NCBI GenBank assembly: GCA_003194525.1
Contig: NBIV01000249.1
Coordinates: forward strand, 52,741-116,740
Source of the DNA: Gracilariopsis chorda
Lineage: Eukaryota > Rhodophyta > Florideophyceae > Gracilariales > Gracilariaceae
DNA: 64,000 nucleotides
Direction: 5' to 3'
A program made the position numbers and the translations under genes. Positions within the stretch are counted from its first letter, which is position 1. Every line of letters starts with the position of its first letter. This document shows positions 10,267 through 64,000 of the stretch, in pieces. The notes under the pieces were generated by a model. The model ran no database searches. It was not told the DNA's origin and saw only the letters and a list, made by a program, of their open reading frames with translations.

Positions 10267-13200
10267 GGTGATCTTAGCGGATGAAAGCGCAAGGCGGAAT
10301 GACTCTTGTGTAGGATTGCAGGATGCCTGGGGTTTGTGATTGGAAAGCGCTCGTGAACGCTGTGTACGCCTCAAAGAGAAACGGCGCAGGCGCTAGTTGA
10401 CAGTGGGGATATGAGACATGCAATACTACGCTTTCAAGATGTGTAGCTAACGGTCGGCACTCTTCGCAATGCCGAATAGGGTCAACCAGGGCCAAAGCTA
10501 AGGTTGATCTGAGAAGCTTCACGGGAAAATGAAGTACGGTCTCAAGCGTGACAAACCGGGGATTTTGGCAACCAAAAAAAAGAGTCGGTTGTGAAATCTT
10601 AATGCAGCTCAAAAATCACACTGCGCCAACCGTATGCCAGCAACAATGCATGATAGCTGTTTGGTAGTACATATTGCGCGCCTATTTGAGACACAAGAGA
10701 AAGTTGAAGCAATCTTCCCCTTCAACCGAAGGTAGTATTCGGCAGGAAATGTTCAACTCGACTGCGCCCGTGAAGTAGACTGTTTCAGGAATAATGACGA
10801 AACGAGCAAGTACCCTCTTACACCGCCGTCACTTCTCTCTTCCCGTCACGCTGCAGCTCGTTGGTTTGTGCGAGTTTCTATGTTTCGTGCAAGATGATCC
10901 AGCAGAGCAAACATATAAACCGATATCTATCCACCAGCTGCTCTTACTTCGAATGGTCATCCCCCTCCTCTTTCGCTCGCTTCAAAAGTAGTCTGGCCCA
11001 TAAACGCGTGGTATATTTTAGCGATCATCACAACGAAACCAAAAGGCCAACATCACTAACGCCAAGACCGCAGCCGTTATCACAACCATCTGCAAATCGC
11101 GTAAATCCCTCTTAGACACTAGAAAGCATATTCTTAAATCACTAAGCGAAGTCGCCGTTCCGACCTTTATAAAACCCTTTCTTCTGTCAGCGCTGGCAAT
11201 TCCCATCACTGCACTCGCGTGAATACCCACTGAACGGTATATATGGAACACAAACCTTAAGTCTTTCCATAAACGTCAAACTGAGAAACGTCTATGCCAT
11301 CTTCACGTAAATCCGTGCATCGTCCCGAACGGCTCTGAACAGACTACCTGTCACGATCCATTTGAATGCACTACTCTTCCTTTCTCGCAGCTCCCTCTGT
11401 GTACTTCTTCACCTCATTCCATTGCATCAATAAGAACAACTAAAAGCAAAACGTCCCCAGAACCATTCAGATCACAAATATTACAAGAAGGTAATTCCTC
11501 TCGAAGTAACATGGAACAAAGAAATCCATGTTGTCCACTCCGTGTTCATCGCCAAATCCAAACCCCAGTTTTATGCAACTACCTCTTCTACGGTGAAACT
11601 TCCGTTCATAAAACCTTGAATAGCATGTTCAACTACACTCGTGTTTAGTGGGAGCGTTCTACGAAATCAAAGAGAGTCCCACCAGGGATTTCGTCAGATT
11701 CTTCCACGCGGAAAAGATTGAAGCTGAAACAGTCATATTTTATCTCTAGAGCTGCAGTATTAAGCCATTTTTGTTGGACTAGTATTGCAATGAGGGATTA
11801 CGTGAGAGCCGAAAGTGGCCTCGCTTGTGGAAAATATACGAATCCGCCAGCAGCGGTGTGCCGACCGTGGTGTTAATGCTACTTAGGAGGAAGCAAAGTA
11901 GATCCGCAACTGGGGTCTGCTGCTCCGAGAACTAGGATTTCGAGGCAGGGGCCAGCTCCTTATAAGTTAATATTAGTATTCATCTGCGCTGGGCTCTATG
12001 CTGTTGCGGCCCATAGCCCTGAGAAGACGACTAAATGGAAAGGCAGGACGAAAAGAGAGAAAGAGGCAAAAAGGAAAGGACAGTCATGATGGTGCTCCTT
12101 CTGTGTGTCATCTGCGCCCTCCAGTCCCAGCTGCACTTATGACATAGTTTGTATGCACAGCCGATCCGGGCTGAAGCCAGGTCTTAGAGACCCTACCTGA
12201 CAAGAGTCGGTTCCTTGTCGATATACTATTTCGAATAGCTCTTACTGCGCGCAGGAGGCATAATCCGCTGACGAAGCGGCAGGACTAATAGCCCACCCGC
12301 TTCAAACAACAACAAACAACAACAGAGAAAAGCGCGATAAGCTTTAGTTCAGATCAAATGCCACATCCACCAAAGTCTGCCGAAAAAAAGAGCTCAATAG
12401 GCACCTTACCATAACAAAACAACTACTCATGTGTCGAAGAACGTATCAATGCTATCCCACGTTTAAGGCCCACAAAGTATTCCTGTGACAGAGACGACGA
12501 TACTCCGAGGATAATTGGGCACTTTCAAATAGTGCGAGTACCCCTGTACCCCTTATTATTTAAGGCCTCGTTAAAGAAGATGATTCCTGATGGTACAAAG
12601 TACATCAGTTTGCTTGCTACTTCTTCTCCTTCGTTATTGTGGTCAACAGCTTTCTATTACCAAGTTGACTGCTACGACACGCAAATAGAAATAAATGCGT
12701 TGTCGAACCTAAACCCATCGTACGTGCGAACACAGTTGAAAGCAATATCGTGTACTATATCCAGAATTGCTCAAAAAAGTCTTTCTTTCGTACGCCCTAA
12801 TCTCTTTGAAAGTTTGCAGAACCACGCGATCACGTTCCATGCAAGTGCCAACGGCACCGTGGTACCAAAGTGCGGCCTAACTTAAAAAAGGGAGGAGTGA
12901 GGCAACAGCTTGAATCTAAGAGATTCATCCTGGTTTTACGCTTTTGATGCGGATTCAGTTTGAATGACCGCGCCTCCGCACACGACCTTGTGCCGAATGC
13001 GCTCAAGGCCGGAGGCTTCTGAGTTGAAACCCCCTCCCTTTCGTTGGCCTGCTTGGCAACGAGCAGTGCAGTTTATTCAATAAACTACAAAAGACTGTGG
13101 CACCTAGCCTGAAAGAGATGTGAAGCTCCACGCAGGAAATTTCTACGGAATATCTACTCCAGCCGTCTTGGCGATATGCCAGAGTTTTTTTGGAGGGGAC

Positions 13201-16791: not shown

Positions 16792-18351
16792 TCAGTCATG
16801 TTTCGAGTATTCATTTTCATCCTTTTTGGCGCGTTTCACCATACGCCTGACCCCTATTTGCAGCGCCAGCGACACAACACCGTCAGCGGCTATGAATAAG
16901 AATGCCATACCATTATTGCCGAGCACAAGAAAGCCAATCATTGTAACCAGATGAAAATCCCACCAAACCTTCAGAGAAGAAGTAAGAATCACAGCCGCCA
17001 TCCACCACGTACGCCTTGCGCGCCAGCCGTTTAGCACATCCTTCCTACCCTCGGCACTAGCAATTGCTACCATTGCGGTTCCGTGAATCTCATGCAGCAC
17101 TTGAAAGTGATAGGCAAAGGCCAGGAGTCCTAAAAATGATGAGTTGGAAGTAGCCCATTCCACAGATCTCCAAATGGTTTGTACGGTCGCATACATCACT
17201 CCTGTAATCCAGCCTGTAAGAATCCATCCTTCCATATTTCGCTCTGCGTCGCTTACTTCTTCCTTGTACTTCTTAACTAGTTGCCATTGTAACCATAGCT
17301 GCAACAGAGATTGAGTCATCATCATCAGAGGAATAGAAACCACCCAAAGAACCACCAACATCAACGCAATTTGCAGCATCCATGTCGAAAGCAGAGACGG
17401 AATGCGAAATAGAGTACTTCCACCGTTTGTCACCGATTCCAAGCTAGATTTCAGTGCATCCCCAACAGTGCTACGTCCATCCATAACCCTCAAGATCCTG
17501 TCCAGCACAACTGTCGCACCGGGTGAAAGCGTTTGATCGCCCAAGATATCCGTTGTTTCTAGTTGTAAACTGTCTTGAAAAGCCTTGGCCGCCTGCCAGA
17601 CATTATGAACACTTGATTCCAATCGCTCTGGCTTGGTGGAATTCAAAGCGAATAAGTGGGCGGAAGATGAATTGATAGACTGTGATAGCGCAGTTGTAAA
17701 CGCCAAGAACTTTTGCTGAGAACGTGGTGATAATTGAGCACGTGGAAACAAGTCACTCAACCTCACGGCTTCAAGAGTGTATGTAATCGCAGCGGTGGCA
17801 TTGTTTCCCATCTCACTGAGTAGTGGTAAAGAGGTAAGATTGTTAATGAGGTTAGAGAAGTGTTCTTCATTGGATTGTGTTAAAGCGTCTTGATAATGCT
17901 GCCACTTCTGAGTAGCCACTTTTATCAGATGAATGCCACCATCCTCGGTTAAAATCCTGGTCAAGTTTTCCATTAATGAATTAAGTAGAGAATTCCCTCT
18001 GGGGGATATTGTAGAGCGTCCCAGGTACTCACCCACTTCCTTATAGTCAGATACAAGTTCGAGGAAGCGGTGTGCAGTATCAAAGCCAGCATTAACGATA
18101 AGCCGAGAAGCACTAGGAATACCCACCTGAAACACAAAGGAGAAGACGAAGAAAGGTAGGTATGGTACAGCTTTCCACAGCTGTACGAGTAGAGTCACTG
18201 CAGGAAGAAGAACCAAACCACGAAGAATTTGTCGACGTTTGCACTGTTTGGAGAGGTTGCTGAGCGGGAGGCGACTGCATTGGAACTTTATAAGGTAGTA
18301 CAGACTAGCAAAAGGGGCTAGCAGGGTGAGGACTGACAAAGCAGAGATCAT
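16792..18351 (-). CDS. Multi-pass membrane protein, paralogue B (unknown family)
   Basis: A 519-residue protein clearly homologous along its length to the one at 8689-10266. Shared features are the N-terminal hydrophobic anchor, a second hydrophobic block, the SPRSQQKFLAFTTALSQ segment, ILRVMDGRS, AIASAEGRKDV, and a WWDF motif in the C-terminal membrane bundle. Divergence is substantial (roughly a third to a half of residues identical by eye), so the duplication is old. The best-kept parts are the central ALSQ...DILG...VMDGRS region and the C-terminal SAEGRKDV/WWDF region, which probably mark the functional core. The ATG at 18351 is chosen because the longer frame upstream starts only with TTG. 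Function unknown. Confidence 0.85.
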   Translation of the reverse strand: MISALSVLTLLAPFASLYYLIKFQCSRLPLSNLSKQCKRRQILRGLVLLPAVTLLVQLWKAVPYLPFFVFSFVFQVGIPSASRLIVNAGFDTAHRFLELVSDYKEVGEYLGRSTISPRGNSLLNSLMENLTRILTEDGGIHLIKVATQKWQHYQDALTQSNEEHFSNLINNLTSLPLLSEMGNNATAAITYTLEAVRLSDLFPRAQLSPRSQQKFLAFTTALSQSINSSSAHLFALNSTKPERLESSVHNVWQAAKAFQDSLQLETTDILGDQTLSPGATVVLDRILRVMDGRSTVGDALKSSLESVTNGGSTLFRIPSLLSTWMLQIALMLVVLWVVSIPLMMMTQSLLQLWLQWQLVKKYKEEVSDAERNMEGWILTGWITGVMYATVQTIWRSVEWATSNSSFLGLLAFAYHFQVLHEIHGTAMVAIASAEGRKDVLNGWRARRTWWMAAVILTSSLKVWWDFHLVTMIGFLVLGNNGMAFLFIAADGVVSLALQIGVRRMVKRAKKDENEYSKHD

Positions 18352-19182
18352 AATTGGCTTGTGTAGGTGACGGGAAGCGGCAGTCGTTGACAGTGATGGA
18401 CAAAGGCTCTTCAGCAAGATGATAAAAACTGGAAACGAAGCTCTTTGCGAAGCGTATGACTTGTGGCAGCTGTTTGTGTCGTTCGTGCCTCTGAAGGCAC
18501 GGACGTCGCTGGAGATAGTAAGGTCATAAATAGAAGGGCAAAATGGGGAGGGTAGTTTGGTCTACAATGAACAAAAATGCTGGATGATGGAGCTCCGGTG
18601 GAGAAGGCGGCAACGAGGCAATAGGAGGTCAAAAGAAGCAGGGGATGACACACTAGTGAGCCAATGAGATGGGGGCAACAATGCACAGTAACGGCTTAAC
18701 GCGAGATATCTCTCGGAGCTGAAGCTTGGTAGAACTGACAGTTGTACAACAAGCAACTGGTTCAGATCATGCACTGACGGCTCTCCACTGGAGAGACTCC
18801 AGCGAGTGGAATCGATAAAGAATGGGATGAGAGGAGTGTGTTGGATCAAGTCTTGTGCTGCTCAGGTACCGAAGGGTAGATAGGAAGGATACCTAAACGA
18901 TACGAAGAGCTGAATATAGACGCATTGTTTCCCTCGGTAGTGGGATGTGGAGTTTTGCTGATGACTCGAATGAGATCAAACGCGTGGAGAGGAGTCGGCG
19001 ATTGGACAGTAAGTTTGTTGAGAATTGTGTGATAAGCAGGCACGAGTGGATACGAGTAGATACAAGAACCACTTAACCGTTGGTGTTTATAAGAATACAG
19101 GGCAGGTGGAGAGTTGATTGCTAAGAAAGGTAATTGCGTGCAAGGAGCACAGCTGTACAGCGGTGGCAAGCGTGCATGTACT
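18352..19182. other. Spacer, possible alternative 3' end of the next gene
   Basis: No independent gene is supported. A minus-strand frame at 18846-19337 would become the C-terminus of the neighbouring membrane protein if a 40-nt GT-AG interval at 19315-19354 were spliced; otherwise it is non-coding. Confidence 0.3.
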
Positions 19183-26931: not shown

Positions 26932-29597
26932 TCACCAAGTCGATGACCAATTTTGATGTAGAGGTCTCAATGGGGCAGCGATTGGCCAAGCTGTCAAGTG
27001 CTCAACGCAAACCAAAATAAATCTATACCCCAACCTGCTTGTAGGAAATTGGCCTGCGAAGTCGATCGAATATAAGTCAAAAAGCGAAGACACCGGTGTA
27101 TGAAGACTGCTGTAATACATAGGTACTGATAATATTCTTTTACATGTATCACAGCTCTTCACATAGTCCCCGATTTTTTGATACATATTCGGCCACCAAA
27201 ACCGCTCAGTGATAAACTTTCGTGTGGCTGCAACGTTCCAGTGTCCACTTTCGTCGTGAAAGGACTTAACGATGTCCAGTCGCCGAGTGATATACGGAAC
27301 AAGTCGTACATTGTTTGCCCCCCTCCTGAACAGTTTTCCTTCTCAGACCAGAAATCGCTTCGCATTACGTCGGATTGCTTGACGAATATATGTGTCACTC
27401 TCATCCATTGGGAACCCATAAAGGTAGCGGGCAATATTCGAATAGTATGGTTCCAGTCCGGGAAAGTGCTCAGCTTCAACTGCAAGGCAAAGTAAATCTC
27501 CTTCATCTTCATGTCAATCTCCCTTGTCTCCGTGGTGAGTCCTAGAAAGGTAGTCTGCAGCACCATTATCCTTGCCTGCACGATACACAAGCTCAAAGTC
27601 ATACTCGGCTAGGAAGTCAAGCCATCGAGCTAGGCGTCCATATATGTCCCGCTTCTGGAAAGCGTAGCGCAACTCCATATTATCTGTGATAACGTTGAAT
27701 GGAACCGAAGAAAGAAGGTACACCCTGAACTTCTTGAGTGCAAAGATGACTGCCGGTGTCTCTCGTTCACAGGCGGAGTAATTCCTTTCAGCTTGGGTCA
27801 TAGTACGACTGGCGACCTGCATTGGATGAATTCTCCCGTCCTCTTTCTTTTGCGACAATACTGCCTTCAGAGAAACGCTTCTCAATGTCCGGAAATGACA
27901 ATACAGGAGGCTCCGTCAATTTCTTTTTCAAATCACGAAAATCATCCATCATATCTTCTCTCCATGTCAAAGTTTTATTTCCTGACGTAGCGCACTGAAA
28001 TACGGCGCATGTTTCCGCAAAGTTTCTGATAAATCGACGATGGTACACTGCTAGACCGAGGAACGACCTAAGGTCTGTCGTAGTAGTACGCACGGGAGTG
28101 CCTTGAATCTTGTCAATCTTTGACTGGTCCACAGATATGCCACTTGCACCAATGACATGTTCAAGAAGGATTACCTTCGGCAGTGCAAAGAAACACTTCG
28201 ACAACTTGAGCTTAAGAACATGCTTCCTTATGCGGTTGAACACTAGCCTCAAATGAGAAACATGTTCTTCGAGGCTCCTTGAAAATATCACGACGTCGTC
28301 AATGTATACGCGGACAAAAGCAAGTCCCCGGAGCACATGGTCCATCATACGCTGAAATGTGGAAGGGGCATTCATAAGGCCAAACGGCATGACTTCAAAC
28401 ATGAACTTCCCGTATCTGCAAACAAAGGTGATCATCTCTTTGCAATCTTCAGACATCTTGACTTGGTAATATCCTGAGAAAAGATCAAGGGTGGTGAAAA
28501 CACAACAACCTCCAAGGTTGTCAAATATTTCTGCCATGCGGGGTGGCAGCCATCGATCAGCTTTCATGGCTGTATTGAGTTCAAGATAGTCCATGCAGGA
28601 CCTTGCAATTTCATTTTTTTCGAAGCAATGACGACTGGAAATGACCATGCAGAAGCGGAAGGGGTAATAATACCAGCCTTAAGTAACCAATCAATTTCCT
28701 TGTGGACGAACTCATTGTGATAAGGAGACATTATTCTGGCTCTGGAGTATATTGGCTTATTCATGGTTAGCTCAAAGAGTAATGTAAAGAGACTTCTGCA
28801 GGACGCAGGTCCATCAGAGACCAATCCATTACATTGGACTCTTGAAAACAAGAACTTATCTCTTTCCTTTCTTCTTCAGGATCATGGGATAGCTTAGAGG
28901 ACAGCAACTCTCTTTCTTGACTGTCGCCAGAGATGTCCAAATTTGGTATCATTTCGCCAGGATCACCTTGGCTTTTGTCTGTCACAGCTACAACCAGTTC
29001 ATCTTCTTCTTCAGAGGTACTCTCATCATCGAAAGCAGCATCAGGGTCCGATGTAAAGTCATCGCTATCTGTGTGAACGTCTTTTTGGTCCGGAACATCA
29101 AGGCGAGCGTAGTCCAAGCCAAGTATGAATTTCTTCCCGGTACTTTTCATCTTCACTTGCTGATTGCCGAGGTCAAGACAATCCTGAAATGTCTCAAAAG
29201 CTGAACAACTAATTATAGTACCAAACGGACGACCATCGATAACGAGAAAGTCCAGCGCAACAGGAATGCTTCCAAACGAGATAGCCACATCATGAAGTAT
29301 ACCCTTGCATACGGCGCTCTGTCGGTTAGCTATAGTTGTCTTCTTTGGCGTATCCTTCCCGTCCAATGGCAAATTTTCACAAAGCTTCATAGAAATGAGA
29401 TTCGGCACTGCACTGAAATCGAGTAACGCTTCGATTTCAGTTCCATATATTGTCTCAGAGACTGCCTTTAGACGTCTATTCTGCTTCCCAACTGGACCTA
29501 CAAATGAACGTCGGACGTTACTTCGGCGATTGATGAGCTTACGGATCTCCTTCTTAGCATCATCAGCGTCTCCGCGAATCATTTGTCCAAATGTCAA
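26932..29597 (-). pseudogene. pol pseudogene of retrotransposon 1
   Basis: Domain remnants in order on the minus strand: aspartic protease region (29597-28767, active-site-like ALLDFSAVPNLIS, where the usual D-S/T-G is altered to DFS); reverse transcriptase (28851-27788, with LDLFSGYYQV, PFGLMNAPSTFQ and the catalytic VYIDDVVIFS); RNase H (27885-27514, ALKKFRVYL, ITDN, LSRTHHG); integrase zinc-binding and core start (27602-26932, with CDTCKR and IDFAGQFP). The segments occupy at least three frames, so several frameshifts are fixed. The integrase C-terminus is not recognisable. Confidence 0.9.
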
Positions 29598-29986
29598 TCG
29601 AGATGAAGCCTTTTCCAGCTCTACCAGGACGTTGTACTTCTTTGCATAACCCTGGATGCTCGTTTTCTTAGCCCTTCTCGGGTTTTTTTGTAGTTAATGC
29701 TCATGAACTTTCGCTTGATGGATTCTTCTTTCTAGACGGGATGGGTAAAGCGAGGTGGAATGGGCGCTCTGCCATCTGAACGGGGTTGCTTAGGAATGGC
29801 TTCACCATCGGCATTTCTCTTAGTCGTGGCAACTACCTCAGCACTCTCAAAGTTCTCCGTCACGATCGGTACATGGTCAGATCTTTTCTGAGCACCGGAA
29901 GAAGGTTCTTTTTCCTCTTCTTTGGTTTGCCACCCTTTTCTAGTCTGCTTTGCCCTGATTCGCTTCCAGCAGGTGATCTCAGAGTG

Positions 29987-50775: not shown

Positions 50776-50821
50776 GGGCGCGTATCAGAGTGACTAAAGT
50801 AGACTCTGTGTTTTCGGAATG

Positions 50822-51105
50822 CTAGTTTGAGTGCTAGTTTTTCTAGTTTGGGGGTGCTAGAAAGTCTATGGTGGGCATTCAAAAAAATCTCAGAATTTTT
50901 GTGCTAGTATATCTAGCACAAAATACTAGCTCAAATGAATGCAGAGGTGAATGTGAGAAAACTAGCAACATTCATACTAGCAGTAAGAAACTAGCAGTCT
51001 ATCGTTCAGTTCTCATTCATACTAGAGCATAAATACTACGAACAGTGAAGGGGTGAATGTTTGTCATCTAGTGCCAGATCATTCACCATCGGCGATGAAA
51101 TCTAG
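50822..51105. repeat. CTAG-dense segment with palindrome
   Basis: Thirteen CTAG tetramers in 284 bp, often within GTGCTAG or ACTAGCA. One pair forms a perfect 11-bp inverted repeat (50897-50907 and 50913-50923) around a TATAT loop. TTCATACTAG occurs twice. GGTGAATG occurs twice and its complement CATTCACC once. Confidence 0.85.
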
Positions 51106-51185
51106 CAGACATGGACGTTTCGGATGCGGTACTCATTCACTTTTACCTCGTCTAATGGATGTAATCTTGAATCTATACTACGCCA

Positions 51186-51335
51186 GTACAGGCCTCCCCT
51201 CACCGTCTATCGTGGAATGGAAACCGCTTTCATTGTCGTTTCATTTTGCTCCAGGCGTAGTGCGCCTAGAACAAATCGAAAACGGTAACAAAAACGGCCT
51301 CCATTCCACGATAGACGGTGAGGCGAGGCCTGTAC
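51186..51335. repeat. Long foldback: 36-bp near-perfect inverted repeat
   Basis: The arms 51186-51221 and 51300-51335 are reverse complements with one mismatch. The 78-nt interior continues to pair imperfectly (AACCG.../...ACGG) up to a small tip hairpin AGGCG-TAGTG-CGCCT near 51254-51268, so the whole 150 nt can fold into one stem. Confidence 0.85.
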
Positions 51336-51590
51336 CCGTCACAAAACGAAACCACAAAGAAACAAGTTAGAATGCGCTCCCTCCTTTCATCACGACGCCT
51401 CCAATAACACAAATTGTGTTGAACACACGTACCTCATCCAAACCTCTGCTCATCCCCCCTCGCTGCACCTTCTCGCTTCGACCTCCCCATTCGCACCTGC
51501 AGAAGATACAAATAAGCAAACACAAACAAACACTCGTTAGAAACCATCAAACCTCATCCAATCTGCAACTTCTCTCTCGCACATTCGCAT
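51336..51590. other. Short spacer before the satellite array
   Basis: No gene supported. A CA/CT-rich stretch resembling degenerate flanking repeat units. Confidence 0.4.
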
Positions 51591-52640
51591 CAATAAACAA
51601 ACAAAAGTCAGATCTCCATCAAATAAAGAATCCAAAATAACTTCGCCACCGCACTCACCTCTAAGAAAAACACCCACTCCTTATCACCTAGTACGGTATC
51701 CACAACGCTTCGCAGCAGAAACCAAAAACTTGTCAGTTCTCCGTACATAGCCAATACCAGATAACATTAGCACTTAACCTCACCTTGCAACCACCACTTC
51801 TTCGAGCCCATTTCCCATCTCGCTCGCTTCGCATCAATAAACAAGAACGTGTCAGATCTCTGTAGGTAGCCAGTCCCAGAAAACATTCTCAATGAAACTC
51901 ACCTTGTAGCAACCAGTTCTTCGCACCCATTCCCTCATGCCTCTCCCTTCGCGTTTACACACAGAAACATGTCAGATCTCCATAAAAAAACGGAGCAAAA
52001 CTAAAACACAACCGCACTCACCTCTATGCTCGCCATTCATTCGCTCTCACCTATCACCGCATCCACAACGCGTCGCAACAGCAACACAATCTTGTCAGTT
52101 CTCCGTACATAGCCAATACCAGATAACATTAGCACTTACCACTTCTTCGAACCCATTTCCCATCTCGCTCGCTTCGCATCAATAAACAAGAACGTGTCAG
52201 ATCTCCGTAAGTAGCCAGTCCCAGAAAACATTCTCAATGAAACTCACCTTGTAGCAACCAGTTCTTCGCACCCATTCCCTCATGCCTCTCCCTTCGCGCT
52301 AACACACAGAAACATGTCAGATCTCCATCAAAAAACGGAGCAAAACTAAAAACACAACCGCACTCACCTCTATGCTCGCCATTCATTCGCTCTCACCTAT
52401 CACCGCATCCACAACGCGTCGCGACAGCCACAAAATCTTGTCAGATCTCCGCGCTTAGTCGTTACCAGATAACATTCGCAGTCTAACTCACCTTGTAGCA
52501 ACCACTTCTGCTCACCCGATCCACCCCTTCTCATTCATATAGCTCCGTATCAAGAAACAAAACCTGTCAGGTCCTCGTCCAGATTGAAAAGTGAACAGCA
52601 TAGCAAACTCACCTGTTCCTCGCAGTCTTCCAAGCCCCTA
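51590..52640. repeat. Satellite array of ~120-bp units with three-unit higher-order period
   Basis: Units are anchored by GTCAG at 51607, 51732, 51851, 51971, 52094, 52196, 52316, 52440 and 52566, a spacing of 102-126 bp. Three subtypes recur in order C-A-B-C-A-B-C-A plus a diverged last unit. A at 51732 and 52094, B at 51851 and 52196, and C at 51971 and 52316 are near-identical pairs 345-362 bp apart. The second A unit lacks about 17 bp. Nearly every unit contains CTCACCT, which on the minus strand reads AGGTGAG. Confidence 0.9.
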
Positions 52641-53098
52641 GCTTCATCCCAAAACACTGCCGTTGCTCCCTCTCCCGCATCAACATAGAAAGCGTAGCAA
52701 GAGTCAGCACATGTCAACACACGAAAAAACGAGACGTACTCAATTGCACTTCACGAACCTGCAAGCACGAGCGGGACGTTCCGCCACATCCAGCGTCCAG
52801 GAAATCGCACGCTCCGAAGATCACACTGATCTACACCCTCGTCTACATATATTCCCAACCTCTTCATGCGAAATAATCAAGTCCTCGCCGTCGCTTAAAA
52901 AATTTACCAACCTTGAATGTTTTCATTCCAAACCACTTTCCCGTCCACACACGTGCCATGCCTGCCGTGCCTGCCACGCGCCTCTCTGGCGCATCACAAT
53001 GCCACCTGATTGCTGCTCCTGATCAGTCATATATTCTCCCGGAACGCCTCCCACGTCTTTCTCATCTCCCACAGACTTACATCCTTCTCCTCTGCACC
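52641..53098 (+). promoter_or_regulatory. Upstream region of the transposase-like gene
   Basis: No independent gene. The transposase frame is open from 52913 but the first in-frame ATG with a meaningful downstream motif is 53099. A repeated TGCC segment (CCATGCCTGCCGTGCCTGCCACG) lies at 52957-52979. No clear TATA box. Confidence 0.3.
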
Positions 53099-56000
53099 AT
53101 GCAGCCTTGTCGCTTCCACAGGTGCTCCTTCCAGACAAAACTCCACGCCTCCCTTGTCCAACACCAGCGGCGTTGTCGCTTCCGCCACACCCCCAACCCC
53201 TTCCTCGCCACCACTCCCAAGAACGGCACCCAGCTCCCACCCCACACCAAACGACCACGCATTCAGACCGCAGACTCCCGCTCCGTTCGCATCTCAAATC
53301 GCCCCTCTGACAACATTCCGCTCGCGGAAGACGATGAATACCATTCTAGCCAGCTCGCTCTAGCCCTTCGCTCCGCAGACGCCGTCCACCTTCTCCACTT
53401 CTCTCTCTCCTCCCCTCGCAACACACCTGCTTCCAGCACCCCCGCACCTGCCAACCTCCACCCTATTGTCTCCTACATCGCTTCCATCGCCACCAAGCTT
53501 GGCAAACGCAAAGCAGACGAACTCATCAACCTCCTCAAAGACCCAGATTACTCCCAGGCACTCATCCAACAAATAACGTCCGTCTCCCACTGCCTTGAAC
53601 TCCATGCAAAGCTCTTCGAGGACACCGTCGGCTCTATTGGCTTCGAATCCAGAACTATTCGTCACATGCCCTAAAACATCACCGCAACTCTCTACCTGAA
53701 AAACCCCGTGGATGTCCTCCTCAAACAACTCCGCTACGCTTCTCGTGCAAACACCTTCTTCCAACCAGTAAGACAGTCCGCGTCAGACGGCTCCCCCGCA
53801 CACGCTCACCCCATGGCTTCAAAACTCGGTACATGCGTCTACAAGGACCTCAAGCACCACATCCTACATTCTCAAGACCCAGATGTTATTTGGCACAACT
53901 CCAACATCACTGGCATTGAATCTTTCATCGCCTTCGTACAGCTTTACTCAGACAAGTCTTCCACCTCGCTCAAGAACTCCTCTATCACCTCCTACCCCCT
54001 CCACATCACCCTCCTCAAATTTTCAGACTCCTTCCGCCGCCATTGCATATCCCGTAACTACACCCTACTCGGCTACTTCCCCACGTCCTTCGAAGCCCCT
54101 TCCTCCCCATCCGACGAGGATTCCCTCGAAGACCGCTCGCTTTCCTCTGCCATCGCCCGTACCACCCGAATGGAACTCATTCAAGAAGCTCTGCAAACCA
54201 TCCTCGAGCCCCTCGCAGCTGTTGCCCTCAAAGGATTCCCTTCCTGGGATGAAGACCAGGTCATCCGGCAGTGCCACCCAGTCATCGCAAACTATGCTGC
54301 AGACATCCCCGAAGCAAAAGACATCCTCGCTGTCTTCCACGGCACAAAACCGTTGAAGCTCTGCCATAGATGCCTCGTCCCCCGCTCCGACCTCAGCCTC
54401 CACCTCAGCTCCCTAACCCCTCAAAACACTTCCCACACCCTCCAAACAAGATCCTCACACGACGCCCTTCTCAAGGATGCAAATAACACCGAACTACAAC
54501 GCAGACTGCCCGTCGCAAGGACTCTCAGAGATCAAGCAGCATCTCTCCTGCACACAAACTCCCTCTCCCCATACCACTCCTTCTTCGAATCTTACCCCCT
54601 CCTCAATATTTCCCCACTGCTCACCCCATACTCCATCTTCTCCTTCGAACCCCTTCACAATTTCCACCTCGGTATCTCCAAACTCGTCAAATTCGCAACC
54701 ATCGAACGCCTGAAGTCCGACAATCTCTTCACCACTGTTGCCTCCTCCTCGAGATCATTCAAATCCATTCGAAGCACCCTTCTCACCCATGCAAACAACA
54801 TCCTCGCAGATATCGAAGTCAACTTCTCCGCACCGGGACTTCACATTGACTTTTCCACCGCAGAGAAGGGCAAATCCCTCAACGGCTTCTTCACCCCGGA
54901 CGGCATCAAAGGCATGCTCGAGGCAAAAGATTACCGCGCAGTCGACATGGTGTTTCCCTTCGTAGGCGCCTTCTTCGATCGTTGCTGCAACGAAGTTGAC
55001 ACAGCACCCATCACATCCATCTTCACGACATACGCCGACCTCTTCACTACCGCACTCCATTACAACACCACCTCAGAATGGACACACCAACAACTTCGTT
55101 CCCTCCAAGAACTCATCAAGCACTTCAAGCATCTCTGCGTCTCCATCCTCGGCCCTTTCCAGGCTTCTCACTTCGGAACGCTCAAATTCCACCTTCTCGA
55201 TCACATCGTCGCCGACATCAAACTATGCGGAGGTCTCTACTTCACTGACGCTGGCATCTACGAACACGCACAACTCCTCTTCAAAAACCATTATCGGCGC
55301 ACATCCCGAAGATCTTCAACCGCCCACAGAGAAACAATCGACGCAATTCAACTCACAGAAGGCTTTCGAAACTCAACTGCCATCCCCCACCGCCTTTCCT
55401 CCTCCTCAAACTCCCACACACTCCCGGCTCGAAGACATTCTATGGTTCGCGACGGTACCACCATTCTCTTTCGGGATATAATCACCGCAGAAAAGTACCT
55501 TCGGGCGAGCCCAAACTGCTCCAATGCCTCTCTCTCAAACATCTTCACCTCTTCCACCATATCGTTCATCACTCAAATCTCACGAGACGCAATCTCACCG
55601 TTTCACAATCTATGCCTCGAAGCGGTTGGACTTTCCCCTTCTTCACCCTCCTTCTCTTCTCTCAACTTCTCCGTCGTCAACTCCGCGTTCATCCGCAGCG
55701 CTTTCACCCCTTCCTTGCAAGACGTCGACAGAACGTTCAAATGCATCCGGTTCAGAGAACCATCGTCCCCTGTTCTCCAGCGCATCTTTGCCACCACCAG
55801 CTTCGGTCCTTCAAAACTTCCAAAGTTCTCTCATATTCTCGTCTCAAGCACTCCACCACCCAACTGCAAGTTCCCCACGGTTTGGGTATGTAAGCTTCTT
55901 GCCCTTCTCCGCTTCCGCATAAAAGACGATGAGCCAGGTGAACGCGAATATGCTTTCGTCCGCTTCTTCGAACTCACAGATCCTCTTGATAACGTGGAGG

Positions 56001-56224
56001 AAAATCTTAACTGCATTACCCTCCGTTGGGCGACAGACGATGAACATGACCATACTATTCTCCCCGCTCTTCACGGAACCTCGAATCCTAGCCCCAATGC
56101 TGCACCTTGGTTCGGTCTTGTTCCTTTCTCCGCCATCAAAAGTTCGGTGCATCTTGTTCGCCAGAGCTACCCAGCACGACCTTTCTTTCCGCCCTTCCAT
56201 GGCAACAACATCGGTTCTATATGA
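53099..56224 (+). pseudogene. Transposase-like protein with N-terminal zinc finger, one in-frame TAA
   Basis: A single frame of 1,041 codons broken only by TAA at 53672-53674 (codon 192). The protein begins with a C2HC zinc finger, CRFHRCSFQTKLHASLVQHQ plus a final Cys, the arrangement found at the start of several CACTA/Plavaka-type transposases. After the stop, the large part carries a second Cys pair (LCHRCLVPRSDL), FSFEPLHNFHLGISK, and a late FHLLDHIVADIKLCGG...TDAGIYEHAQLLFK segment with regular acidic residues, like the catalytic half of such transposases. I cannot assign the D-D-E triad with certainty. If TGA 56222-56224 were read through, the frame would run 20 codons further to TAG. 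It converges with the next gene with about 100 bp between them. The family call is an inference. Confidence 0.5.
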
Positions 56225-56327
56225 GCAGATTCTTCCGCGACCCACGAGCAAGAGCTTATTCCACCGCAAGGTAATCAAATTTAGAAACACAGACCCGCTA
56301 ACTCTAGCAATAAACTTCTTAAACTTC

Positions 56328-58823
56328 TCATTCCTCCGTCATCTCGTCTCCACGCCCACCGTCCTCTCCGTCTTCCTTCCCCTCCCCTTCCTCTCTGGGG
56401 TCCAACATTTCTTCCTCAACGGCTACCAACTCCTTAAACTCCCGTTCTTCAGGCATGCAACGGCCTACGTAGCAATCAAATACATTACCAAGGTACGTAG
56501 TCATTTCATCCAAAAACACCTCGTACTGGACACACAGATACACCATTTGGTTCGACGGCATCCAACACGCAACGGTCCCCTCACGTTCCTCATTCCCTAC
56601 CACTTCAGTCGGATCTTCAGCTTTCACACCATAGTTCACAAGCTCCTTCCCGTACTTCCCTTCGATCTTCCTTCTCGCAGTCAGTAGGATATCCTCCACA
56701 GCAAGCGGGAGATACTTTGCATACAATTTCGAAAACAGCATTTGCCACTTCCCTCCTCTCCCCACATCTTCTTTCAATGCCTCTACCACAGAAGCAATCC
56801 ACGCATACAATCGCGCCAAATGCATGACACTTCCATCTACATAGCTCGTCTCCCGTTCCCTGCACGGTCGCTCCGCGTCGTATCCCATAAATTCCCTCAA
56901 CATCTCCACACTCAATCCGTTCTTGAAGTACAAGTCATCTGGTTCTTCTCCATACTTTGTCGAAGTCACGTCATAACCAGAGAAACATATTCTGTCTAAA
57001 CCAGACAACCTCCACGCACATAAGATCGGATCTCCCCTCTCATCTTTCGGCAACAATTTCTCTTCCGCCTCCTTCATCTGCTCATCATACGCCACAGCCA
57101 CCTCTTCATCATCCTCCTTCTGCGGTTTCCTAGCAAGTATAGTGTACCCCAGACCAAAGAATAACCTATCCCTCGCATTCCTTTTCCGCACCCCGACAGT
57201 ATCACTAAGAGCCTGTTGCATGCGCCTCCTCAAACACAGATCCCTCCTCAACTCTTCTTCGCAGTCAACCTTAATCCCCATGGCTTCCAACCTTCTCCAA
57301 ATCGGTTTCTCCAGCTCCATCCGCACCACATGCAACAACATCTCATCGCTTACTCCTTGAAAAGACGGAGTGTAGGCCTTTGGCCCCCACGACTTTCTTC
57401 CTAGCGCCAGCTCCATAGGATCCAAAGGCACCATCTCCTTCTCGTCTATAATCAGAACACTGTGCTTCCTCCCCGGTCCCATCTTTTCAGCCCTGTTCGA
57501 CCAGTTTCGCTCCGAAACTCTCCTTCCGATGCACAACTCACTGGTCTCCTGCTTCGCATATACCAATATCTTCTCATAAACTCTCGAGGCTACTCCAATG
57601 AAACGTATATCAACTTCGATTTCGTACCGTTTCCGACCACTCTTGATGTCTTCGCCACTCAGTGTTCCTGTTCAACCAGGAATACTCTCTCGTAATGACG
57701 TCAGTAGCATCTCTTTCTTCGTGAGTTCATCTTCTAGCCTCTTCATCTCCCTGTTTGCCAGGTTCAAGCTTAGTTGGAGGCTAGTGTTGTCATCTCTTGC
57801 TCTTCTTAGTTCCCCCTTCAGCTCTCCAAGCTTTGTCAACAGCTGATTCCGTCCCATAAACTTTGCCTCTCCATGCTCCGTTCTCTTATGTCCGACTTCC
57901 TTCAACGGGTCAATTCCATCTTCATCCTCCTTCTCCTCATACCTTTCCTTCTCCCAGATCCGATCTCCCTTCCCACCACCACCTACCCTCGTTCACTTTA
58001 TCGACTCCCTTCGTATAGCTTCGTCAGCGTATCCATATTCGACACTCTTCATAGCATGATCCCGATTGAGCCGGGAAGAGGACCCTTGCGTTGTTCTGCG
58101 TGCCGGGACTCTGCGAGTTTGGCCTCCATTTCCGCAAACCACGGCTGATTGCTTCGTATTCTCCTTCCCTCCACGTCCCTCCCCACTCCCACGTCGTACT
58201 GCAGCTTGAAAACGAAGGGTACCCTTCTTGCGTTCCCCAATTCCCCCCGTACCTTGGTGTACTTCGTCTTGCGGTGTCTCACTCACGTGTTCCTTAGAGG
58301 CAAGAGTGCTGCCCTGCTCCTCATTCCTCTCTAAACACTGTTCGGCTGCCTTCCCGTTACGTCTCTCCTCGAGAACACCGCCGTAACTGCCACTAGACCT
58401 TCGCCTCTTCGGTTCTCTTTCGGTTTCTCCTTCTTCCTCTTCCTCACTTTCTACCAAAAAAACCGTGTGAACGGCACGATTACGAGTAACTGGACCTCTC
58501 GGCTGTCTTTCCTTCTTCCTCCTTACGACTTCACTCACCGTACGGTCCGTCATAGTTGAGGTAGCTCATTCCTGCTTTTCATCTTCCTTCCCCGTTTGTA
58601 CGATGGTACTTTCACGTCGCCTCTCCGTCGTTTGCAACCCAGAACGCGGCGGACCTCTCTTCACATATACACCCTGGTTCTTGCTTTTACGCGCATCTGC
58701 AGCACTTGACCTTCCCGCGATGGGTCTTTCCGAGTCCACACTTGGCCTCCCACCATTTTCTTTGCGAGACTTCGACGTACCGCCCTCCTTACTGTACCGT
58801 ACGCGCTGCTCCTGTTTTCTCAT
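56328..58823 (-). pseudogene. Coiled-coil protein of the same cassette, three in-frame TGA codons
   Basis: From ATG 58823 the frame stays open for 831 codons except for TGA at 58566-58568, 57993-57995 and 57672-57674. It ends at TGA 56328-56330, with a TAA two codons beyond. The first ~270 residues are Arg/Lys/Glu/Ser-rich and probably disordered, with an acidic run and a basic KRRRSS patch like a nuclear localisation signal. A heptad-like coiled coil (LTKLGELKGELRRARDDNTS and onward) follows around 57860-57680. The rest is a folded region of about 400 residues (KRYEIEVDIRFIGVASRVYE, GRKHSVLIIDEKE, FFGLGY, an acidic C-tail) with no family I recognise. It is probably an accessory DNA-binding or assembly protein of the element. 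Confidence 0.5.
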
Positions 58824-59307
58824 CCGTAAATAGGCGGTATTGAACCAAACCGCGGTATCGGGATGCGGAAAGTAGAAGTTAGACCAGGTTGGAGACAAAA
58901 GAAAGGATTGAATTCGAAAGTGACTTCGCGGGATGAGGCGAAGGAGCCAGAAGATGTATAAACTGTGTCATCCGAAGCCCGAGAAAAATGGATTTTTGAA
59001 TATCCCGCCATGAACGACGAGCTACCCAAAAACCTATGCAAAAATGGAGTATTTGGAAACCCTCATCCATATCCTTCACGATTCGTTTCCACACACTCCC
59101 TCAAATCCTTAACGACATGTATACATATGTTATCGTGTTCCTTTTTCTTTCTATTAATTCACTTGAACTAAATGCCATTTAGCACCTCTATCCCATTTCA
59201 CAATTGAAAGCTTTAACAACGAATAAGACAGGAACTAGGATGTCGAGAATAACAGAATAGAAATTTACTCAAAATAGTGCTTCACAAGTAACACAGGTAA
59301 GAAGACT
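58824..59307. other. Spacer between the coiled-coil and MTase-SET genes
   Basis: No gene supported. It contains the 3' flank of the MTase-SET gene and the upstream region of the coiled-coil gene. I looked here for a terminal inverted repeat matching the 51-52 kb region and saw none. Confidence 0.45.
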
Positions 59308-62300
59308 TCAAGCCGTGCTTCTAAAAACGTAATCATTCCCGTAACGAAGAAACAACTCTTCTCCTTCCTTTATATCGTGTATTGCTCTCGCAGATAGCAG
59401 AGTGTATTCCATAATCCTTTGCTGCGATAACGTAGAGCTCACCGGACGTATCTGAACATTCGCCTTTCTTCGTACGTTGGGTTCATCTTCTGTTAAGTCT
59501 TTCTCCTCGTCTCCTTCCAGGTAGCGGGGATCATTAATATAGCCTGCCATACAAAAAGGTGCAGGAACAATCCATATCCTCGCTTTCTTCGTTTCTCCAT
59601 TATAAGTAGGCATAGTTTCAAAACCAATGCCGCTACCTACGACTTCCATGGAGAAATTGTTGAAACGCGAAACAGCAGCTCCCATGAGCCCCTCCCCATA
59701 CGTAACATGTTGTTGGGGACGTTGACTAATGTCATGTTACACAATAGTCCCATAGAAGTGACAAACAGCCTCTCCTTCTGCGAAATTCCGTGCACTAAAG
59801 ACTCCGAGCCCGCTAGATGGGTGCTTCACTGAAGACTTCGCCACCACGCACCAGTAACTTGATGCATCTACACCACGCAACAACTCTGGCTCTAACTCGT
59901 TCAGCTTTGCCTGAGTGCTTTGCGGCCACAGATGTAAAGCCTTAGTACGATACTTGCCGATAAGATCCATATCATCCCATAAAGTCGATAGAAAAGCCAT
60001 TATATGGAAAGGAAACCTTTGATACTGCGGGAAATCCTTCGGTGCTGTCCATTGCATTCCTCTGGATCTTTTCCTGAACACCGTGGCCACATGAAGTGCC
60101 GCCTGTACAACAGCATTCGTACCGATGCGTTCATCACATTCCAAGTCACCGACTTTGAGGGAATTGTCGGCAATTAACTTTTCCATATGCACTATACCGT
60201 TATGCTTCGCGTGTATGAAACAATTACGATACTTCTCACCGCCGATGAACTTTCTGTGCGGAACAATTTCCATGCACGCGAGTGCTGTGGTAAACGTTCC
60301 TGAGAAGAAATCCATCACAAGGTCTCCAGGTTGAGAAAAACGTGCTATGAGCTCTTTCATCAACTGTCTCGACTTCTGCTCCGGGCGAATCTGACGATAT
60401 ACAAATCGTTGCCCATCCCGCACCTTCCAGTACAGTCTCTCTCCTGGGGCATGATGGGGAACCTGATCGATTACTCCGACATGTCCAGGGTATCGGCTGG
60501 CAACATGGTTGAGCTTGCGGTAGTTCACAATTTTCTTCTGCTCCGCATAGGGAATGCCATTCCGAACCGCATGCACTACCTGCTCCCCTGCGGGGAACAA
60601 GCTAATGTTGTTGCGACCAGGGAACGCCATCGGGTTTGAGCGATGGCGCAAACACAACAGGGATGTCTTATCCACGGTGAAAGACTTCTTCATCCTCCCG
60701 TCTGCATCAACGTATTGGCAGTCGGTCAAAATCTTGTACCATATTGGGAACTGAAAACCTGAACAGAAGACGAACAAGTGTCCGCCAGGACGCAGGCAAT
60801 CCGAGTTGTGATCGGCAAACGAAACCATCTTCTGGTGACTAATGCGATCGTATTCGGTATCCCGAATTTGATACGGCGCGTCAGATATAGAGAGTTGAAC
60901 TCTCCCCCTCGGAGATATGGTGCCTCCCGGAACACTTTCATGAACGTCCACCAGCTCTTCGGAGTCCACGCAGTAGAACGCAAAGTTCTTGTCCATCAAG
61001 GACTCCAGAATCTTCATAGCCTTCGCAGTCACAGGCCCCAGCGTCCCATGAGGAGGGAGGATGCTCACCGAAACGTCCACTGTTGCCTGTATCTCCGCAG
61101 CAGCGGGAGCAGTAGGCGTGGCAATTACGTCATCACTGCTACTACCGCTCCCATCCGTCTGTCCGGAGCCATTGGAGCTCTCACGGAGCTGCTTTCCAAC
61201 GGCCTGCACGCTCTTCGTGTGGCTCTTGGTTCCAGGAGCGGCGGATGGTTTGGAATGTACATCCGTAGGGCGCGACCAAGCTTTGCTGGGTTGAACATTA
61301 TGCTTTGCACAAGCTTCCTTCACTGATTTTACAATATCCTCGGACAAGGAGTCAAATCGAACCGGTGGGTTCGTGCCGCTTCGCGTAAACGTAGATAGCA
61401 CTGTCCATTGCTGGGTTTCACTCAGCTCATACATCTTCTTGTCCAGTACAATACGCCGAAGATCCGAGACGAATTCTCTGGCCAGAATACGCATATTGCG
61501 GTCTACGTCATCCGGAAAAGCAATAGCCCAGGGAACAACATTGTCCCCGGATACCGTCGGCTTCATTTCTTGTCCCAGCTTGTACGCAGCGGTTTTGGGG
61601 CTGTAACCAATCGTTCGGGAGTGAATATCAGAGAGCTTCAAAGTGTCTCTGTTGATAAGGAGATAAGGAAGCATCATCTGCTCGCAGTCTCTGAAACCCA
61701 GAACGACAGCGAACGCGTCCCAAGCCCTGCATACGTGCTGTACGCCGTACGCCATACGCTGACCGTGCATGCGATTAGACATGGTGAAACTTTCCACGTA
61801 CTTCACTGCCTTCACCTTCTTTCCGTGTCCGAGGCGTCGCTTTCGTTCCCGACCCGTGCGTTCAATCTCGATGTGCTTTACCACCGACAGGTACAGCAGC
61901 TGTTGGAATCGAGTAGCAGGAACGGTCCTGAACCTTCCCCTTCCCTTCCTCGTAGCGTCTCCGCGAAAGTACCTCTTGAGGATGTCATTGTTGAACACCC
62001 TTTGTACCATCCCTGTTCCACCTCCGCGCCTCCCGTCAATGGTCCACTCGTAAAAGTCCCGTACACGACTGTCTTTCGACCCGTCTTGTTTATCGAACAA
62101 TGCAACATATCGATAAACCTGTCGGAAGTACTGCGTCGGACCCTGTACAGAGGTGCAAAGATAAGCAGTGACCTCTTCGTCGCTGTAGGAGGTGCGGGAG
62201 GAACCAAGGTATCTTTCCAACAATCAGACCACTTCTGAATTCGCTCGACGATTCTGTAGCATAAACTCTACAATCTTCTCGAATGTGACATCGCGTTTAG

Positions 62301-62346
62301 GGACCCCGGAGCCTCTCGATTCCGCGTACGCATCACGGACGGACAT
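59308..62346 (-). pseudogene. DNA N6-adenine/N4-cytosine methyltransferase fused to a SET domain, two in-frame stops
   Basis: From ATG 62346 the frame runs 1,012 codons with TGA at 62224-62226 and TAA at 59737-59739. Numbering from the Leu codon just after that TGA, residues 1-300 are an unrecognised helical region and 310-380 a low-complexity Ser/Thr/Pro linker. A class-beta-ordered methyltransferase follows: motif IV ISDAPY (a variant of DPPY) at 446-451, then motif I VMDFFSGTFTTALACME near 636-652 with IGGEKYRN. From about 804 a SET domain starts (GLGVFSARNFAEGEAVCHFYGTIV), is cut by the TAA, and resumes with YGEG, MAGYINDPR, KANVQI and a terminal EGEELFLRYGNDY. It would methylate DNA, and lysines on histones or other proteins. 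A further in-frame open stretch upstream (to 62607, ended by TGA 62356-62358) lacks a convincing start. Confidence 0.75.
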
Positions 62347-62763
62347 AAACACATTTCAGATGGTTGTGAAGCTTTCCGAAATGCTCATGTCTGAGGGCGG
62401 GTGCGCAGGAGCCCTATGCCCTATCACGGGTGCACCTGAGGTACTCCCCTGTTTAGTGGAGGGGAACGACATGGGTGGAATTTCGGCGGGAGATGCACAG
62501 ATGCACGAAAGATTGCGTTCGAGTTTGAATGGTTGCGAAGGAGATGCTTCGTGGCAACCGAGGAACGAAGACGCCCGTTCTGATGATTCACGTCCCTCGA
62601 AGTTCAAATAGATTTGATTTCGAAGTGTGTAATGGAGCAGGGAGGGAAAATTCGGAGGGTTTTGTTTGGAATGAGGGAGTTGGGCACTGCAGAACAGACG
62701 GAGAAGGTGAAACTTTGAGAATTCGTCGCAGTTCTCACAGTTCAGGTTGTCGGTCTAACGGCA
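62347..62763. other. 5' flank of the MTase-SET gene
   Basis: Open frames exist on both strands (for example + 62192-62611), but none has a recognisable motif. The minus-strand frame in phase with the methyltransferase could be extra coding sequence if TGA 62356-62358 is another acquired stop. Confidence 0.35.
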
Positions 62764-62982
62764 CAGCTGCGCCGGGTGGATGGTCTTGACATTGTCGGTC
62801 GACAATGTCAAGCACGGACACCAGAATGTTGATTTTTGATTAAATAAGGGGGGTCTTTCTTGACATTGTCGACCGACAATGTCAAGCACGGACACCAGAA
62901 TGTTGATTTTTGATTAAAGTACGGGGGTTCGTTCTTGACATTGTCGACTGACAATGTCAAGACCGACCACCCGGCGCAGCTG
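62764..62982. repeat. 219-bp symmetric structure: three 28-bp palindromes within a 49-bp inverted repeat
   Basis: Three palindromes, each arm CTTGACATTGTCG, two central bases, then its complement, lie at 62785-62812, 62859-62886 and 62934-62961 (74 and 75 bp spacing). The two spacers are direct repeats sharing CACGGACACCAGAATGTTGA and TTTTTGATTAAA. Outer arms starting CAGCTGCGCCGGGTGG make 62764-62812 and 62934-62982 near-perfect inverted repeats of each other, so the middle palindrome is the exact centre. It lies between two divergent genes. Confidence 0.95.
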
Positions 62983-63284
62983 CACCGGCCTGGGGGTCGG
63001 TGCCAGCAATGAAGCGTTGACCCGTGGCAGGAGGGGGGTTAGAGAAGAGGTGGAAAGGGCGACCGGAATGCTTCCTCCGCAAAGAACTGTGAGCGAACTC
63101 ACCGAATCCACTTCTTCGTGCCACCTTAGCACCTGGTCTTACTTAAAGGACGCAAAGAGAACCTCTGCCTTCCCTCAGGGTTGAATTCAGCAGTCAGCAC
63201 GCGCTGATTTTCGCGACCGTCTGCACCAGATTACGCGATTCCGTGTCGCTTATCGAAAGGTCGCTTATCGAAAGGTTTTCCATC
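62983..63284. promoter_or_regulatory. Upstream region of the last gene
   Basis: No gene. It contains a tandem 13-bp duplication, TCGCTTATCGAAAGG-type, at 63246-63275, just before the chosen ATG. Confidence 0.3.
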
Positions 63285-64000
63285 ATGGTGCGCAAGACTG
63301 CAAAGGCCAACAACAGGCGCACACTAGGAGGTCTACCAGACCCAGTGCCTCTGTGCGGAAAGCGAGGGCAACAGCGTCCGATAGCGCAATGCCAACAACG
63401 CGCAGCGGCACAAAGCAGCCCAGTGACCCATCCTGGGGCCAAACCCAAGCGAGAACGTGACCCTGGTCGTTCCATCTACCAAAATGGGGAGCAGAAGAGC
63501 GTGGGGACTGCCTTTGTCAGAGATGATTCTGGTGCTGTTGGGCACTTGGTGAGGACGTTGCATGGGCACGAACTGAAGAAGAAGCCGACAGAGGACCTTG
63601 TCGTCATATGGAAGGTGCTCATTGAGGATGGCAAAGATATGCAGTACCCGTATCAGTTCAAGACGAGTGACATCATGCCAAACACTCTGGGAGATATGGA
63701 GAGCAACGCTTTTCTACTGCTGGGACGTGAACATGATGCAACCTTCTGGTGGCGGAGCCTCCACTCCCTCCACTCTCGCTGCGAAACCGTCTTCCGCCAG
63801 ACTCCCGCTGCGAACGAAAGAATCCGTCCACCAAGAAAGTGAAGCAGAACACCGCAAGAAAGGCGAAGGCGAAGAAGTTGACGCAATTGGTGAGCTTGAG
63901 TGACGACGACGGTGATGAAATACACAAGGGTGCGTTGCACTCCAATGTGAAAGACGACCACCTCCACCGGAAAGGCGAAGGTGGTCAGACTGAGCGATCC
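63285..64000 (+). CDS. Hypothetical protein with one intron (partial, runs off window)
   Basis: ATG at 63285 opens a frame of basic, Gln/Arg/Pro-rich sequence (MVRKTAKANNRRTLGGLPDP), then a more ordered segment with HLVRTLHGHELKKK and DLVVIWKVLIEDGKDM. A 74-bp GT-AG interval at 63727-63800, with a pyrimidine-rich tract, joins it precisely to a second open frame. That frame carries a Lys-rich stretch and an acidic SLSDDDGDEIHKG, and is still open at the window end. Without splicing, the first frame stops at 63842. No family is recognised. Its place next to the palindromic structure, divergent from the MTase-SET gene, makes it a candidate fourth gene of the cassette. Confidence 0.45.

Follow-up and report, generated by a model that had tools for sequence, protein, structure and literature searches.

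The gene described here, which joins a class-beta DNA amino-methyltransferase (MTase) domain to a SET domain in one polypeptide, is carried as an accessory gene by Plavaka-type (CACTA-like) DNA transposons in a red alga. A decayed copy is present in the window, i.e., the whole stretch of 64,000 nucleotides from Gracilariopsis chorda that was analysed. Relatives of this copy were searched for in the 91.3-Mb assembly (1,081 contigs), which also contains seven matches to the phycobilisome linker (PF00427, E down to 9e-41) and one phycobilisome-domain match, as would be expected of a red alga.

In the window, the MTase-SET gene is located on the minus strand at 59308..62472 (1,054 codons plus a stop codon), its extent being judged from relatives in a family alignment. 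The protein is comprised of an N-terminal region of ~500-520 aa, the MTase domain, a linker of ~130 aa, and the SET domain. The frame matches the N6_N4_Mtase profile (PF01555) with an E-value of 1.3e-13 and 51.9 bits (cut-off 26.7), and the matched domain lies at 60223..60900 (minus strand). The SET domain (PF00856; 59338..59811, minus strand) scores 29.3 bits against a cut-off of 22.4 only if an internal stop codon is read through, and the 142-aa piece that follows this stop scores 15.9 bits, under the cut-off. The copy has three in-frame stops, at 62358-62356, 62226-62224, and 59739-59737 (the one within the SET domain). A preliminary description of this DNA had reported one reading frame at 59308..62346 with an MTase and a C-terminal SET domain; both domains are confirmed by Pfam, whereas the frame is not open in the window copy, since the second and third of these stops fall inside that span. 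The profile searches that it had proposed gave matches above the Pfam cut-offs for both domains on uninterrupted ORFs of relatives. In the copy C53, the MTase-SET frame runs over 1,065 codons from stop to stop (MTase E-value 3.6e-18; SET 23.3 bits, barely over the cut-off), and in C637 it runs over 1,039 codons (ORF 3503-6619 of the stretch C637:4001-13000; MTase E-value 1.6e-11; SET 26.8 bits).

The MTase is of a bacterial or phage type; the best solved relatives found by profile are DpnA, MboIIA, CcrM, and RsrI, and the best phage family is phrog_67. As had been noticed from the letters alone, motif IV (DAPY, 60882-60871) precedes motif I (FSGTF, 60306-60292) on the minus strand within the MTase domain of the window copy, and this order, together with the PF01555 match, identifies the enzyme as a class-beta N6/N4 amino-methyltransferase. 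The catalytic form of motif IV in class-beta MTases is [DNS]PPY. Among twelve family members, motif IV reads DPPY in C53, C336, and C539, DPTY in C236, DLPY in C60, DVPY in C94, DAPY in the window copy, C12, C228, and C435, DAPT in C637, and DAPA in C9. These residues make an active MTase likely in the young (C53) lineage and doubtful in the window lineage. The earlier proposal that the gene writes both a DNA mark and a histone mark may therefore not be valid for every lineage, because motif IV is altered in the window and C637/C9 lineages.

The SET domain was matched by PF00856 in all six members scanned (E up to 1, best 1.8e-8), the window member being read through its stop. The SET motifs GxG and Y-G are represented by invariant residues (G15-G17 and Y173-G174). 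The usual SET motif III is NHS; in all six members, it is IND, so we refer to the product as a SET-domain protein, without presuming that its substrate is a histone. A search of PDB sequences with the SET profile (E up to 10) listed 31 sequences, of which 28 are named lysine methyltransferases or SET8, with EZH2, KMT2, KMT5A, and PBCV-1 vSET among the names; EspP, also among the 31, is a non-SET protein, while 5kkl and 4rz0 are taken by us to be SET proteins. Four PDB sequences had an E-value below 0.001, all of them EZH2-type chains, including 5kkl under another name.

Possible sources of the fusion outside the alga were also considered. Of 96 viral relatives found, 80 loci were retrieved, and the profiles of the SET domain and of the N-terminal region had no match in these 80 (E 0.1). 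A viral source of the fusion was rejected, as by profile these loci hold the MTase only, without SET. Among prokaryotes, a weak scan with two short family-specific peptides as the query yielded 59 candidate stretches, none of which was confirmed.

The neighbourhood of the window copy is that of a transposon. About 3 kb past the 3′ end of the MTase-SET gene, a Plavaka-type transposase is encoded on the opposite strand and in convergent orientation (52877..56224, plus strand), as two ORFs in one frame separated by a stop at 53672-53674; the ORF 53675-56224 was identified by PF18759 (E-value 2.1e-20, with 53675-56221 scored). Between the two genes lies a gene broken by stops (56328..58898, minus strand), coiled-coil-like by eye, for which Pfam gave no match in 56331-57671. 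It occupies an equivalent position in the young subfamily, where it is open (821 codons). A palindrome array is found upstream of the MTase-SET gene (62784..62961; a 74-bp unit repeated ~2.4 times and containing a 28-bp palindrome), and beyond it the damaged beginning of a divergent gene (63147..64000, plus strand, start approximate), which has a homologue in C637 and is cut by the contig end. A ParB-like fold, suspected by eye for this divergent gene, was unsupported by Pfam, PHROGs, and PDB sequences.

On the transposase side, the window element ends in a degenerate terminal inverted repeat (TIR; 50803..50825, plus strand) with 3 mismatches to the TIR of the young subfamily, and subterminal direct repeats occupy 51584..52509 within this end. 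The second terminus lies outside the window, since the contig stops at window position 64000. Contig C1065:1-13230 corresponds to window 50782-64000 at 99.65% identity, including ~20 bp of flank. As these ~20 bp outside the TIR are common to both, up to the start of the C1065 contig, independent insertions were rejected, and C1065 is either an assembly haplotig or a recent duplication. A tRNA suspected by eye at the insertion edge was not supported, as ARAGORN finds none in the window. Elsewhere in the window, decayed retroelement fragments with a reverse-transcriptase-like YIDD frame (27788-29693) and two long, alike membrane-protein-like ORFs on the minus strand (8689-10392 and 16792-18561), apparently paralogues, were noted by eye.

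Across the assembly, at least 150 scored PF01555 matches (from 175 candidates), at least 85 PF00856 matches, and at least 114 PF18759 (Plavaka) matches were found, all of them lower bounds to which contig ends contribute. A SET match lies within 2 kb of 59 of the 150 MTase matches, in all 59 cases downstream on the same strand; these 59 MTase-SET pairs rule out a single-copy host gene. A Plavaka match lies within 8 kb of 70 of the 150, and all 70 are downstream on the opposite strand, i.e., convergent, where chance would give ~2% per match. The remaining MTase matches (80 without a Plavaka match within 8 kb, 91 without a SET match within 2 kb) are likely explained by truncation, contig ends, and lower-bound scoring. 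Conversely, 26 of the 85 SET matches have no MTase match within 2 kb, and 6 of these 26 are within 8 kb of a Plavaka match; by their scores, the 26 appear to include host SET genes.

Complete transposons were delineated in a young, recently active subfamily, and eleven copies (ten young ones and C1065) were extracted with their surroundings. The young copies are mostly 99.1-99.8% identical, with a minimum of 98.1% (segments longer than 300 bp; queries C27 and C745), and their elements terminate in CGTCGGTGTTYTCGGAATGCTAG inverted repeats. The TIR 23-mer has 239 matches in the genome at up to 2 mismatches, compared with 1 for the reversed pattern, and 61 exact left-type TIRs. Among 100 places listed, at least 22 TIR pairs occur 5.6-11.9 kb apart, and in each pair a C-type end faces a T-type end. 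An exact 2-bp target site duplication (TSD) flanks all 22 TIR-paired elements, while a 3-bp TSD was found in none of 19. An MTase match is present in 13 of the 22, a Plavaka match in 18, and a SET match in 3 (C27, C53, and C187); none of the three is therefore needed in cis. The location of the gene inside a transposon, and the recurrent association with the neighbouring transposase that the preliminary description had named as a supporting test, are thus upheld by the paired elements and by the convergent genomic pairs. Neither of the outcomes it had set against itself, a domain without a profile match or single-copy host genes far from transposases, was found.

The C53 element (11,851 bp) carries open frames of 276 (minus strand), 1,065 (MTase-SET, plus strand), 821 (coiled-coil-like, plus strand), and 1,160 codons (Plavaka, minus strand), measured from stop to stop. 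The C37 form (7,987 bp, C37:52400-60600) lacks the end of SET together with a portion of the coiled-coil-like gene and keeps the MTase in a 608-codon frame. Four further paired elements (C12, C64, C144, and C232; 7,981-7,986 bp) also have an MTase match in a 608-codon frame, and the genome search with the SET profile gave no match in them. Five of the 22 paired elements thus have a size of ~7.98 kb, a 608-codon MTase frame, and no SET match, and are probably all internally deleted derivatives that, like C37, keep the MTase and have lost the catalytic end of SET. The C109 and C340 elements (7,963 bp) are without an MTase match. A membrane-protein-like ORF, recognized by eye, replaces the N-terminal region of the MTase gene in the C187 (element positions 1448-2308) and C37 (1824-2309) elements and is shared by C27, by match to C187; it may reflect gene capture or recombination between elements.

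The PF18759 match, the TIRs, and the 2-bp TSD, the latter two read on the young subfamily, place the element in the Plavaka superfamily, in which TSDs measure 2 or 3 bp. For transposases of this superfamily, catalytic DDE residues accompanied by C(2)C and H(3-4)H motifs are described (PMC12730594, consulted in part). According to the same source, subgroups A and B in fungi end in TGT..ACA or CATCA..TGATG. The termini here, CGTCGG..CCGACG, fit neither fungal subgroup, and the element is therefore left unassigned to Plavaka A or B.

The twelve family members can be divided into four lineages, namely C53; C336/C60; C637/C9 with C236/C539; and the window copy with C12, C228, C94, and C435. The order of parts is constant in the four lineages wherever sequence is covered, with 37-77% identity in the MTase. 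Between C53 and the window lineage, identity is 42% in the MTase and 42% in SET, and it is similar in the transposase (50% over 849 aa) and the coiled-coil-like gene (45% over 403 aa), from which it follows that these genes travelled together.

Selection was measured between C53 and the C336/C60 lineage. For C53 and C336, dN/dS (95% bootstrap interval) was 0.106 (0.061-0.168) in the N-terminal region, 0.146 (0.094-0.209) in the MTase, 0.206 (0.103-0.397) in the linker, 0.193 (0.101-0.349) in the first half of SET, and 0.084 (0.055-0.223) in the second half; for this last value, a frameshift required a change of reading frame, and dS is near saturation (2.4). For C53 and C60, the values were 0.173 (N-terminal region), 0.169 (MTase), 0.241 (linker), and 0.193 (first half of SET). 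The whole SET segment with its frameshifted ends gave 0.28 (C336) and 0.31 (C60). Since dN/dS was 0.08-0.24 in every segment, both domains have been maintained by purifying selection, as far as the single measurable comparison goes, C336 and C60 being one lineage and the test therefore one unsaturated between-lineage comparison. More distant lineage pairs are mostly dS-saturated, and their few finite ratios are 0.27-0.41. Within lineages, ratios of 0.29-1.94 were obtained at small divergences, as expected of largely neutral decay after insertion. Taken together, the pattern points to a gene under selection as long as the element is active, with decay following insertion.

In the three lineages read (window, C53, and C637), the MTase-SET gene is preceded by palindrome arrays, which are located between it and the divergent neighbour and have unrelated sequences. 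The window array has two perfect 28-bp palindromes and a degenerate third one; the C53 element has palindromes of 80 and 52 bp at 1562-1863; and the C637 array is comprised of five repeats with arms of ~35-40 bp, at 2167-3217 of the stretch C637:4001-13000. The window-type palindrome occurs in 61 copies genome-wide at up to 2 mismatches, compared with none for the reversed pattern. TGTCG/CGACA was seen by eye in the arrays of all three lineages. Such an array could be a putative operator or recruitment site.

With regard to function, the reading to which we give about an even chance is that of an accessory dual writer, which would act on the chromatin of the element and favour its own expression or transposition (anti-silencing). 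Briefly, the N-terminal region, the coiled-coil partner, or the transposase would guide the protein to the DNA of the element; the MTase would methylate adenine-N6 or cytosine-N4 on this DNA; and SET would methylate a histone of that copy, or some other chromatin protein there. The resulting chromatin state would favour expression or transposition of the element, against silencing, and internally deleted elements would be supplied in trans with whichever of SET, MTase, or transposase they lack. The SET target could also be a non-histone protein. In a stronger version, about which we are considerably more hesitant, the transposon, living in an alga in which no C5 DNA methylation machinery is detected, would own a complete two-layer epigenetic system in one polypeptide. 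It would place N6A or N4C on the DNA and a lysine mark on the histones of its own copies, with recruitment to the lineage-specific palindrome arrays, and its chromatin state would be decided by the element and not by the host. If this is true, the derivatives that keep the MTase without the SET end would be natural separation-of-function versions competing with the dual writer.

Class-beta MTases are usually sequence-specific, and Dam methylation times or licenses the transposition of bacterial Tn10/IS50. On this model, the MTase might methylate the ends or internal palindromes of the element to time or license transposition, with SET methylating the transposase or a partner and chromatin not being the target. 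This is rather unlikely in our judgement: the palindrome arrays upstream of MTase-SET in three lineages and the 61 window-type copies speak for it, but in the C53 element the palindromes lie 1.6-1.9 kb inside, away from its ends. Still less probable is that the element restrains itself by placing repressive DNA and histone marks on its own copies, thereby limiting copy number and host damage. The wide spread of the young subfamily, as counted by exact left-type TIRs, fits strong self-silencing poorly, even though a host without PF00145 matches recalls the bdelloid system, in which N4CMT and SETDB1 are described as silencing transposons without C5 methyltransferases (PMC8885841, consulted in part).

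A captured host or bacterial gene kept by chance as a roleless passenger seems highly improbable. Many elements without a SET or MTase match have still transposed, as a passenger would allow; against it stand dN/dS values far below 1 in all segments of the one comparison (C53 with C336/C60) and a part order that is constant across four lineages despite their MTase divergence. Compatible with the other readings, and tentatively entertained, is the idea that in the window and C637 lineages the MTase fold serves as a DNA-binding module without catalysis, so that only SET acts. There, motif IV is DAPY or DAPT/DAPA while motif I is conserved, and the C637 frame is nevertheless open along its entire length; the intact DPPY of C53, C336, and C539 argues against extending this idea to those members. 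The dual writer retains our preference.

A search for C5-cytosine methyltransferase (PF00145) gave no match anywhere in this transposon-rich genome at E 0.001 in a six-frame, intron-blind scan, in which 10 of 14 control genomes were matched; the transposon-borne C5 DNA methyltransferase type, as defined by PF00145, is accordingly not represented here. MT-A70 likewise had no match in the host genome, a result that is uninformative, as the control genomes had none either. For Gracilariopsis chorda, ~8% of the genome was reported to be methylated, with a heavy bias to non-CG sites (review, PMC8566409, consulted in part); a signal of this kind might conceivably be 4mC. The MTase-SET family is a candidate for generating non-5mC DNA methylation in red algae, and the fusion, found in a genome without a detected C5 methyltransferase, makes the idea of a selfish element that sets its own chromatin state testable.

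Mobile elements with one epigenetic enzyme (DNMT, TET, or SET) are already known; the present family is distinguished by the fusion of a DNA methyltransferase to a protein methyltransferase, with selection maintaining both. The literature searched gave no description of such a fusion on a transposon, although older reviews or Repbase could contain one. TET/JBP genes occur on Plavaka and other transposons, and some fungal Plavaka elements carry a TET/JBP dioxygenase (Kojima 2025, PMC12730594, in the parts consulted); the Plavaka transposase, TIRs, 2-bp TSD, and, in some, a DNA-mark enzyme are common to both, while the present elements differ in their red-algal host, their CGTCGG..CCGACG termini, and a methyltransferase-SET gene in place of a dioxygenase. 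HarbingerS and MuDR transposons in Phytophthora share a SET methyltransferase on a DNA transposon with the present family, but they belong, by name, to other transposase families, and the consulted parts of the same paper describe no DNA methyltransferase fused to it (PMC12730594). Copia and DIRS retrotransposons with DNMT3-type genes (de Mendoza 2018, cited in the consulted part of PMC12344493) are likewise mobile elements that carry a DNA methyltransferase, but theirs are C5-cytosine enzymes on retrotransposons, in contrast to a class-beta amino-methyltransferase on a DNA transposon. Phage and bacterial class-beta enzymes (phrog_67; DpnA, MboIIA, and CcrM) share the MTase domain and its IV-then-I order, whereas the SET domain and N-terminal region are matchless in the viral loci described above. 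The nearest functional parallel, as far as the consulted text of PMC8885841 goes, is bdelloid N4CMT with SETDB1, where a bacterial-type N6_N4_Mtase likewise cooperates with SET enzymes and the genome has no C5 methyltransferases; there, separate host proteins, one with a chromodomain fusion, serve host defence, whereas here both activities would reside in one polypeptide that is borne by the transposon itself.
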